DNA of 64,000 nucleotides from an uncultured Veillonellaceae bacterium. Lineage in GTDB: Bacteria; Bacillota; Negativicutes; Selenomonadales; Selenomonadaceae. Both the position numbers and the translations under genes were made by a program. The first letter of the stretch is position 1, and the number at the start of each line of letters is the position of its first letter. The notes beneath the pieces were generated by a model. It saw only the letters and a list, made by a program, of their open reading frames with translations, ran no database searches and was not told where the DNA came from. The stretch lies in contig CACZZN010000009.1 in NCBI GenBank assembly GCA_902785705.1, positions 1 to 64,000 of the forward strand, in the 5' to 3' direction. Below are positions 3,652-51,502 of this stretch, in pieces.

Positions 3652-3785
3652 AGGAACTGGTAATAAATAAATTTTAAGATAAGACGCAGGATAAATCTTC
3701 ATAGGCTAGGCGGAGGAAGGAGTCATAGCGGTGCTATGTCGACTGACGACAACAACGCCTATGGAGATTTAGACAAGTCAATTAT
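3652..3785. repeat. MITE-like dispersed repeat, hybrid of families A and B
   Basis: The left end AGGAACTG matches the terminal repeat of the copies at 32639 and 33047. The centre carries AGTCATAGCGGTGCTATGTCGA, with the hairpin CATAG/CTATG, which is the core of the copies at 25814, 36855 and 37124. The block GCGGAGGA before the hairpin also matches the 37124 copy. The right end is degenerate. It has no coding capacity, and its end runs into the ribosome-binding site region of the Uma2 gene. Confidence 0.6.
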
Positions 3786-6393: not shown

Positions 6394-6530
6394 AGGAACT
6401 ATCCCGAAATAAATTACATTTTCTGCTTGTCTAAATTCCGTCTGTCTGCGTCAGGAAAAACTCGACGTAGCTCTGCTACGACTTCGTTTTTCTAAGACTT
6501 TTTTCCTATGATTTCCCGATAAATATTCCC
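6394..6530. repeat. MITE-like dispersed repeat, family A, degenerate right end
   Basis: The left 100 bases match the copy at 32639 closely. Shared blocks are AGGAACT, TTCCGTCTGTCTGCGTCAG and the hairpin core GACGTAGCTCTGCTACGACT (about 6464-6483). The right terminal repeat is no longer recognisable, so the end is approximate. It lies between the symporter and the TadG-like gene. Confidence 0.6.
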
Positions 6531-25813: not shown

Positions 25814-25912
25814 GGAAACACTGATTAAAGCGGTCGTCCAGATTGGCGTGGATTGCTTGTTCCTCCCAAGGAGACAAACCGCAGTCATAGTGGTGCTATG
25901 TCGAGGATTTGA
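25814..25912. repeat. MITE-like dispersed repeat, family B, single-ended copy
   Basis: It begins GGAAACACTGAT and contains a 49-bp block (about 25862-25910) identical to the reverse complement of a block in the full copy at 36855-37014. The block includes the hairpin CATAGTGGTGCTATG. Only one terminal repeat is present; the other end stops at the gyrB stop codon. Confidence 0.75.
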
Positions 25913-25914
25913 TT

Positions 25915-28273
<2,359 letters not shown>

Positions 28274-32583: not shown

Positions 32584-32638
32584 ATTTTTCGCAGTCAAAG
32601 CTTTTGCGGGAGACGCCTTTTTTTCATGGCATGGGCTA

Positions 32639-32798
32639 AGGAACTGTCGAAAAATAATTTAGCCATTTTGCTTGCCCAAATTCCGTCTGTCTGCGTCAGC
32701 GAAAACTTGACGTAGCTCTGCTACGACTGCGTTTTCGCTTCCTTGTCAGACAAAATTTGTTCTGCGCCATATGACTAACTTATTTTCCTCCAGTTCCT
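32639..32798. repeat. MITE-like dispersed repeat, family A, complete copy
   Basis: The ends are AGGAACTG and CAGTTCCT, and the inverted similarity extends for about 26 bases with a few mismatches (AAAATAATTTAG on the left against AAAATAAGTTAG from the right). The centre has the hairpin CGTAGCTCTGCTACG. The 160-bp element has no coding capacity and sits between the oriC box cluster and the rpmH promoter. Confidence 0.75.
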
Positions 32799-32805
32799 AA
32801 ACATC

Positions 32806-32912: not shown

Positions 32913-33047
32913 GTGAAGCAGACATATCAGCCAAACAACCATTGGAGGAAAAAGACACATGGCTTCCGTGAGCGCATGAAGACAAAGGGCGGCCGTCTCG
33001 TCATCAAAAGAAGGCGCCAGCGTGGCAGAAAGAAGCTTACTGCATAA
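32913..33047 (+). CDS. rpmH: 50S ribosomal protein L34
   Basis: The 44-aa protein reads [18 protein letters not shown] at the start, then [20 protein letters not shown], the complete L34. The start is the GTG at 32913, with GGAGGTG seven bases before it; an in-frame TTG at 32865 only lengthens it artificially. The stop codon TAA at 33045-33047 touches the terminal repeat of the dispersed element that follows directly. Location beside dnaA, divergently transcribed, is classical. Confidence 0.97.
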
Positions 33048-33194
33048 GGAACTGTCGAAAAATAACTTAGCCGTTTGGCTTGCCCAAATCCCGCCTGACT
33101 GCGTCAGCGAAAACTTGACGTAGCTCTGCCCTAAAGGACTAGCTGCGCGTCGCTACGACTGCGTTTCCGCTTAACTTATTTTCCTCCAGTTCCT
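33047..33194. repeat. MITE-like dispersed repeat, family A, with insertion in the hairpin
   Basis: The ends are AGGAACTG (from 33047) and CAGTTCCT (to 33194), and it is closely related to the 32639 copy, only 250 bp away. The central hairpin CGTAGCTCTG...CTACG is split by about 24 extra bases (CCCTAAAGGACTAGCTGCGC and more). The left end coincides with the last base of the rpmH stop codon, and the copy lies between rpmH and its terminator. Confidence 0.75.
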
Positions 33195-36854: not shown

Positions 36855-37014
36855 GGAAACACTGATTCATTCAGCCGCCCATCTTGACGCATCTTGCATG
36901 TCCTCCCTGTGTCGACAAATCCTCGACATAGCACCACTATGACTGCGGTTTGTCTCCTTGGGAGGCACATGCAATCTACGCCAAGCTGGACGACTTCATT
37001 TCATCAGTGTTTCC
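36855..37014. repeat. MITE-like dispersed repeat, family B, complete copy
   Basis: Perfect 12-bp terminal inverted repeats GGAAACACTGAT (36855-36866) and ATCAGTGTTTCC (37003-37014) bound a 160-bp element. The interior holds the reverse complement of the 49-bp block at 25862-25910, including the hairpin CATAGCACCACTATG. It begins 8 bp after the mnmE stop codon. No coding capacity. Confidence 0.85.
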
Positions 37015-37123: not shown

Positions 37124-37340
37124 AAGGAGCTGTGCAAAAATAATCGATACAGAATGCGCAGGATGAATTTGTCATGACAAAGCGGAGGAGTGAGTCATAG
37201 TGGTGCTATGTCGAACGGCTGATGTGCCAGTGGCACGTCAGCGAGAATCCTGAGCCCATGGCGAAGGATTGTCCGACCGACAACGCAGTCATGGCAAATT
37301 CAGACAGGCAGAATGCAGTGATTATTTGCGCACAGTTCCT
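37124..37340. repeat. MITE-like dispersed repeat, family A ends with family B core
   Basis: The terminal inverted repeats match at 18 of 21 positions (AGGAGCTGTGCAAAAATAAT on the left, ATTATTTGCGCACAGTTCCT on the right). The interior has AGTCATAGTGGTGCTATGTCGA as in family B, and an extra hairpin CTGATGTGCC/GGCACGTCAG around 37218-37240. At 217 bp it is the longest copy. Together with the family B copy before it, this fills the gap 36848-37368. Confidence 0.75.
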
Positions 37341-37812: not shown

Positions 37813-38406
37813 ATGCAGAAGAAAATATACGGATATGTCAGGGTGAGCACAAGAGAGCAAAACGCAGATCGCCAGATGGCTTCCATGCGGGAGATGGATG
37901 TGCCGGAGGAGAACATTTATCTGGATCGAATGTCGGGAAAGGATTTCAACCGTCCGAGGTATCAAAAACTCCTTCGGAAACTGGATTCGGATTCGTTGCT
38001 CTATATTCACTCGATTGATCGGCTGGGAAGGAACTATACAGAGATACAGGAGGAGTGGAGGCGCATTACAAAACGAAAAGGCGCGGATATCGTAGTCATC
38101 GACATGCCCCTGCTAGACACAAGGCGCGGCAAGGATTTGATGGGGACATTCCTCAGTGACATTGTCCTGCAGGTTTTGTCCTTTGTAGCGGAGAATGAAC
38201 GCTCCGCCATCCGCCAGCGTCAGGCAGAGGGAATAGCAGAGGCAAAGAAAAAAGGCACCCGTTTCGGACGCCCGAGAAAACCTGTACCGGAAGGATTCCA
38301 ACATCAATACCAGAAATGGAGGGAAGGCAAAACAACCCTAAAAGAGGCCGCAAAGGCCTGTGGTATGCCTTTGAGCACATTTTATGCGAAGGGGAAAGCG
38401 TTGTGA
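37813..38406 (+). CDS. Serine recombinase, resolvase/DNA-invertase (Hin/Pin) family
   Basis: The 197-aa protein has the resolvase catalytic domain: IYGYVRVSTREQNADRQ with the nucleophilic serine (residue 11), DRMSGKDFNRPRYQKLL, LYIHSIDRLGRNYTEI with the DRLGR motif, and LSFVAENERSAIRQRQAEGI followed by the long E-helix AEAKKKGTRFGRPRKPVP. A C-terminal helix-turn-helix follows (TTLKEAAKACGMPLSTFYAKG). Size and layout equal Hin, Gin or Tn3-type resolvases. It lies 200 bp before two flagellin genes, and paired palindromes lie between. Inversion or resolution at the flagellin promoter is a hypothesis. Confidence 0.93.
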   Translation: MQKKIYGYVRVSTREQNADRQMASMREMDVPEENIYLDRMSGKDFNRPRYQKLLRKLDSDSLLYIHSIDRLGRNYTEIQEEWRRITKRKGADIVVIDMPLLDTRRGKDLMGTFLSDIVLQVLSFVAENERSAIRQRQAEGIAEAKKKGTRFGRPRKPVPEGFQHQYQKWREGKTTLKEAAKACGMPLSTFYAKGKAL

Positions 38407-51312: not shown

Positions 51313-51502
51313 AAAAAAGGGGTCCAGAGTGCCGGCTCCTTTATATGCCTATACCTGCGGAATTGCAGGTGGGTACCCTAAGTCCTGCTTCAGCTATTCG
51401 CTCAAGGCGATGCAGCATCCCCAGGCTCAAATCGGATTCCCTAGAATAAATGTAGGTTAGACATAAAAAAATTCCTCGAACACCCCAGGCTTGTCCTTCT
51501 TT
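51313..51502 (-). ncRNA. ssrS: Candidate 6S RNA
   Basis: A strong promoter starts a minus-strand RNA at about 51502, and a run of T residues ends it at 51313, giving about 190 bases, the usual 6S length. The 5' part contains CUGGGGUGUUCGAGG, like the conserved GAUGUUCGC of E. coli 6S RNA. The 3' part contains GCCGGCACUCUGGA, like GGCGGCAUCUCGGAGA. These pair as a closing stem (GGGGU with ACCCC, and GAG with CUC). A small hairpin ACCUGC/GCAGGU near the 3' side of the centre is also typical. 6S RNA binds sigma-70 RNA polymerase and lowers transcription in stationary phase. It lies in the otherwise gene-free stretch 51098-51606, downstream of cdd. Confidence 0.75.

Follow-up and report, generated by a model that had tools for sequence, protein, structure and literature searches.

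A high-copy miniature element family with IS5-type ends, diverse end types, and a strand-specific hairpin body in an uncultured Veillonellaceae bacterium

Two inverted sequence blocks, located at gyrB and behind mnmE in the 64,000-nucleotide stretch of DNA analyzed here (the window), belong, as ordinary copies, to a large family of mobile elements. We consider it highly probable that the element is a high-copy, non-autonomous MITE that is mobilized by an IS5-type transposase and has a strand-specific hairpin as its body, with ends and core constituting separate modules.

The earlier note reported an exact inverted block of 49 bp at the two sites; the block is real and measures 50 bp (25862-25911 against 36916-36965), which is the longest exact reverse-complement match, and the wider inverted match extends over 79 nt at 95% identity (25833-25911 against 36916-36994). 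The 12-mer GGAAACACTGAT occurs at three sites in the window. Two of these (36855-36866, plus strand, and 37003-37014, minus strand) are the perfect 12-bp terminal inverted repeats that had been described for the element behind mnmE, an intact copy with A-type ends at 36855-37014 whose conserved fold lies on the minus strand and whose flanks (atat and atag) represent an imperfect 4-bp duplication. The third (25814-25825, plus strand) is the only end present in the gyrB copy (25814-25911, plus strand), as had also been noted; its right arm is missing, the loss beginning immediately beyond the base of the apical hairpin, and the copy ends 3 nt short of TCA (25915-25917, plus strand), the gyrB stop codon. 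Five relatives with other ends occupy the same window. A full-length relative with GGAACTG-type ends lies between dnaA and rpmH (32640-32797, minus strand) and has TAA at both flanks (32637-32639 and 32798-32800), and another with ends of this type, in which the loop carries an insert (CCCTAAAGGACTAGCTGCGCGTCG) and one arm a deletion, is situated directly 3' of the rpmH stop codon (33048-33193, minus strand; stop codon TAA at 33045-33047). This stop codon, within the rpmH-rnpA stretch, doubles as the TAA that flanks the element on its left. The remaining three are one at 37126-37339 (plus strand), which lies 111 bp beyond the intact mnmE element and has GGAGCTGTGC/GCGCACAGTTCC ends with an enlarged apex; one that retains a single GGAACTG end, the other having apparently been lost (3653-3781, boundary approximate, plus strand); and a partial relative consisting of a GGAACTA end and the apical hairpin (6395-6503, boundary approximate, minus strand).

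Family copies in the source genome (G000, a draft of 2.01 Mb in 38 contigs that is 82% complete) were examined through genome searches and short sequence stretches. The exact GGAAACACTGAT 12-mer is present at 32 sites, versus none for a backward-read control, and so occurs far more often than chance would allow; blastn with a 163-bp query recovers 37 pieces; and a covariance model (R1) detects 68 distinct places in the genome at an E value of ≤0.001. The genome-wide search for GGAAACACTGAT-bounded elements that the earlier note had proposed thereby yields many copies, with about 70 related copies in total. At about 160 bp, with terminal inverted repeats, many interspersed copies, and no open reading frame, the element has the properties that define a MITE.

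Target duplications, likewise proposed as a check, are present: full-length copies mostly carry exact 4-bp direct duplications of the NTAN type (TTAA in L011, L035, L043, and L057; TAAG in L004; TTTA in L005; and ATAA in L009); in several others, the duplication is imperfect. Copies in relatives are flanked by TTAG, TAAA, or TATA, and 13 of 25 further copies from genomes G019 and G029 have exact 4-bp duplications. A candidate source of the mobilizing activity occurs in the relative G002 as a 1263-bp insertion sequence (L091) that has the same 15-bp ends, with TTAA on both sides, and whose transposase belongs to the IS5 family (NF033581 [IS5_4], 318 bits, above the cut-off; Pfam DDE_Tnp_1 and DUF772); decayed relatives of this insertion sequence with the same ends were also detected (L092, L098, L110, and L120). 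No intact insertion sequence with these ends was found in the source draft genome (82% complete), which contains two other transposases. The shared ends suggest that the element is mobilized in trans by an IS5-type transposase, which would recognize the outer 12 to 15 bp and insert the element at NTAN targets, giving rise to the 4-bp duplications. Neither site carries the element in other genomes: on the 3' side of gyrB and mnmE, none of ten relatives has a copy within 1.5 kb. The earlier note had attributed the identity of the two blocks to recent movement, gene conversion, or a selected function; mobility is upheld by the terminal repeats, the duplications, the roughly 70 copies, the IS5-family insertion sequence, and the absence from the ten relatives, whereas exchange between the two blocks is contradicted by a closer copy on another contig (see below). 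We also considered REP/RAYT and IS200/IS605 (HUH) systems, which were rejected on the grounds that target duplications are present and that the matching insertion sequence encodes a DDE rather than a Y1 transposase. The attC sites were considered for their ssDNA-like asymmetry, but the ends and the 4-bp duplications point elsewhere.

The body of the element folds preferentially on one strand, which we term ori2 (the minus strand at 36855-37014). For that element, the predicted RNA fold has an energy of -91.3 kcal/mol on the minus strand (z score of -12.4) versus -63.8 kcal/mol on the plus strand (z score of -7.5), and ori2 is the better-folding strand in 34 of 35 copies, as well as in all 24 copies examined that have other ends. 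In an alignment of 29 copies, 41 of the 55 consensus pairs exhibit double-sided change, there are 191 double-sided-change cells versus 53.3 in shuffles, and 95.6% of cells are paired versus at most 45% for slid partners, noting that the copies are related, so that pair counts do not represent independent events, and that part of the covariation could stem from copying between arms. G.U cells exceed A.C cells by 169 to 23 in the first set and by 163 to 47 in a second set that was aligned by means of a structure model (sign tests over columns, p = 0.0014 and p = 0.0003, respectively). Because double-stranded DNA cannot distinguish G.U from A.C, this excess implies selection or mutation acting on a single strand. 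All 29 copies share a tandem GA/GA mismatch (columns 41-42 opposite 125-126), and 24 of them have a second tandem G.A mismatch 11 columns away. In our reading, the arms and a core of 60 to 75 nt make up a conserved hairpin that is strand-specific and contains tandem G.A mismatches; we infer that this hairpin functions in single-stranded form, more plausibly as RNA than as ssDNA.

In the source genome, this core is combined with no fewer than seven end types (GGAAACACTGATTAA, GGGCGTGTTGA, GGAACTG, GAACCTGTTTAG, GTATAACACG, GTAGCAGGTTTC, and TGACACATTGATA). Duplications differ by end type: GGGCGTG ends are flanked by TA, whereas, in our reading of the flanks, GGAACTG ends have TAA or TTA and both GTATAAC and GTAGCAGG ends have CTAG-like duplications. 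Identity between end classes is 0.62 in the core, 0.38 in the ends, and 0.42 in the arms. A and B ends are found on nearly the same body (approximately 77 to 78% identical), and the B ends match a relic of the IS5_3 type (L107). A core-only model (R2) was left unused, as it kept just 9 pairs, arm lengths varying among end types. When 398 genomes sampled from the phylum were searched with a second model (R3), 26 of them, from about a dozen families, gave matches; these genomes display further ends (e.g., GTACTCTGTGATA, GTACCTTGT, GGGGCTATC, and GAGGTTGTTC) around a recognizable core of ACAAGGCGGAGGA..GNCATAC..GTATGNCGA..GACAACGCAG. A core common to element families whose ends fit other transposases would make ends and core separate modules, and the relatives with different ends are probably each moved by a different transposase.

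Bacterial MITEs are usually regarded as inert relics of one transposon. That one strand-specific fold is found on at least seven end types within a single genome, and on yet other ends in additional families across the phylum, suggests that the body, and not the ends, is the lasting unit, which makes it testable what selects a MITE body and how such elements switch transposase. Tentatively, and as a proposal that we hold with less than even confidence, the tandem-G.A hairpin core of about 75 nt could be a persistent strand-specific RNA (or ssDNA) unit that has spread through the phylum by adopting successive transposase ends while being held constant by a widely conserved factor that recognizes it.

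Several observations concern variation in the body itself. An apical-loop insert of 23 to 24 nt (CCCTAAAGGACTAGC..CGCGTCG) is present in L007, L013, L133, L142, L147, L177, and L180 and, in the window, at 33129-33152; it occurs in elements with A, GGAACTG, and GAACCTG ends, its orientation in A bodies being opposite to that in the others. This loop segment may be mobile or invertible. A second insert, of the GTACCCATAGGGCACAGGC type, resides in an internal loop of two copies (L013 and L017). Genome G029 contains many short forms of 66 to 67 bp that have both model ends and no middle (e.g., C1:1219591-1219657 and C1:425324-425390), possibly representing a second-level miniature family.

The alternative that survives best, which we regard as possible but doubtful, is that the element is a plain selfish MITE in which the inverted repeat and the covariation are by-products of palindromy or arm copying and the folded strand has no role. 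The element does possess a complete set of mobile features, its arms are roughly inverted repeats of one another, and its orientation is biased relative to neither genes nor replication forks. Arm copying, however, predicts symmetric and perfect arms, whereas the arms have retained internal loops that are asymmetric, along with two tandem G.A mismatches; moreover, G.U greatly exceeds A.C, and the core persists through changes of ends.

As to what a single-stranded fold might do, the sense of neighboring genes relative to ori2 (both along it in 14 cases, both against it in 20, convergent in 25, and divergent in 11, counts that are approximate because genes were taken as the longest open reading frames) reveals no preference of ori2 for the sense of neighboring genes. 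Similarly, ori2 shows no bias to replication in genomes G019 and G029 (36 versus 48, p = 0.23), on the assumption that the origin lies close to gyrB, where each contig starts. Because orientation is biased neither to genes nor, in these two genomes, to replication, passive read-through transcription and exposure of the strand at forks both fail as explanations for selection on the fold and were ruled out. Three possibilities are left: an RNA transcribed from a cryptic promoter or from one outside the element, a stage in the spread of the element at which it is single-stranded, and binding of a host factor. Of these, we favor, with modest confidence, a role at the RNA level.

A single-stranded stage would make the core a structured DNA hairpin used in the element's own spread, not an RNA, and we judge this to be unlikely. 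DDE transposases use a double-stranded cut-and-join route, which the IS5-type ends and the duplications fit, and the lack of bias relative to replication forks also speaks against the ssDNA hairpin. In its favor, the strand-specific fold contains G.T-type and tandem G.A pairs, which can form in DNA too, no promoter or terminator features were noted in the element, and the accessible text of PMC11109978 raises the same option for the mobile motifs that it describes.

The strand-specific MITE also accounts for the gyrB copy. This copy is identical at 98 of 98 positions to L006, which lies on another contig (G000:C29:7151-7309), with L005, L008, L011, and L012 being almost as close, and the mnmE copy is more distant from it than is L006. 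Since L006 matches the gyrB copy 98/98, the identity between the gyrB and mnmE blocks is not a sign of recent mutual exchange, which we ruled out. That the two copies are kept alike by exchanging sequence, or by flipping the 11-kb origin segment between them, is suggested by inverted 79-nt blocks at 95% identity; yet the gyrB copy has its closest match on another contig and resembles the mnmE copy less, the reverse of what local exchange predicts, and we consider this explanation very improbable. Part of the block common to the two copies is the apical hairpin, where conservation within the family is highest, and a conserved hairpin core can make two near-origin copies mimic sequence exchange. 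Least credible of all is that the copies serve gyrB and mnmE as a gene-linked regulatory element or 3'-end RNA, a gene-linked element without mobile ends being what the earlier note had named as its counterexplanation: copies are often located just past a stop codon and convergent contexts (25) outnumber divergent ones (11), but the element, although it does contain a conserved nucleic-acid structure, has mobile ends and target duplications, lies beside unrelated genes, and was ruled out as gene-linked by its absence at both genes in ten relatives and by its mixed orientation.

The truncation of the gyrB copy recurs within the family. The right arm is missing from L010 (the gyrB copy) and L012, internal deletions are present in L009 and L011, and all four deletions share a starting point, ATGTCGAGGAT(TTG), immediately beyond the base of the apical hairpin; in B-end copies (L015, L020, L021, and L023), the breaks fall on the opposite side of the same hairpin. 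The simplest reading is that such deletions arise from replication slippage or from processing at the long hairpin. The gyrB copy would be an ordinary insertion whose right arm was later deleted from the apical-hairpin base, as in several other copies, and nothing special is required to explain its position beside the gyrB stop codon. We also observed 27-bp end-to-end relics (GGAAACACTGATTCATTCAGCGTTTCC type) from which the body has apparently been deleted (L034, L047, and L053, these three with exact target duplications; similar relics are L038, L045, and L056), and their sequence is consistent with deletion between short CTGA repeats.

Searches of Rfam returned no relevant match to the element, and those of plasmid and phage collections returned no match. 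Among named genomes, exact core matches occur in rumen Selenomonas and Veillonellaceae assemblies and in one Desulfovibrio-binned contig; the latter (L121, JAFTCE010000076.1) harbors a near-identical element, reflecting either mis-binning or transfer between phyla. A literature search, to which most subscription journals were outside scope, found no description of this element family. ERIC, Correia, and RUP elements are short palindromic interspersed repeats that are able to form long RNA hairpins, but they have other hosts and other end sequences, a distinction made here by description only. Insertion sequences of the IS5 family (IS5 group) and the MITEs derived from them resemble the element in their GG... 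ends, the 4-bp NTAN duplication, and the 15-bp ends on L091. They differ in that, beyond the outer 15 to 21 bp, the body of the element is unrelated to the insertion sequence and has a conserved strand-specific fold, and in that this body is common to elements whose ends belong elsewhere.

Of the published classes found, the closest is the mobile or repeat sequence candidates in the accessible text of PMC11109978. One of these, MRSC-65-2, is described there as a single long covarying stem with dozens of copies per genome, inconsistent gene orientation, and likely mobilization by a transposase, all of which find parallels in the window element (a long covarying stem, many copies, inconsistent gene orientation, and likely transposase mobilization). 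MRSC-65-2 is, however, defined by a repeated UYCCGG (PMC11109978), a signature that is absent from both strands of the window element as read by eye, and the accessible portion of that source does not mention a single core with diverse ends. TIMEs are Tn3-derived miniature non-autonomous elements that are moved in trans via their terminal repeats (PMC4133298), a mode of mobilization that we infer for the window element, which is similarly miniature and non-autonomous; TIMEs differ in having Tn3-type ends, and no fold common to several transposase families is reported in the part of PMC4133298 available.

Two other features of the window were recorded. Beyond the two elements behind mnmE lies a 197-amino-acid open reading frame (37813-38406, plus strand) that, by eye, resembles a serine resolvase/invertase, and the stretch behind mnmE looks, again by eye, to be insertion-prone. 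Farther along, the window contains a 6S RNA gene at 51317-51494 on the minus strand (Rfam RF00013, 59.5 bits).
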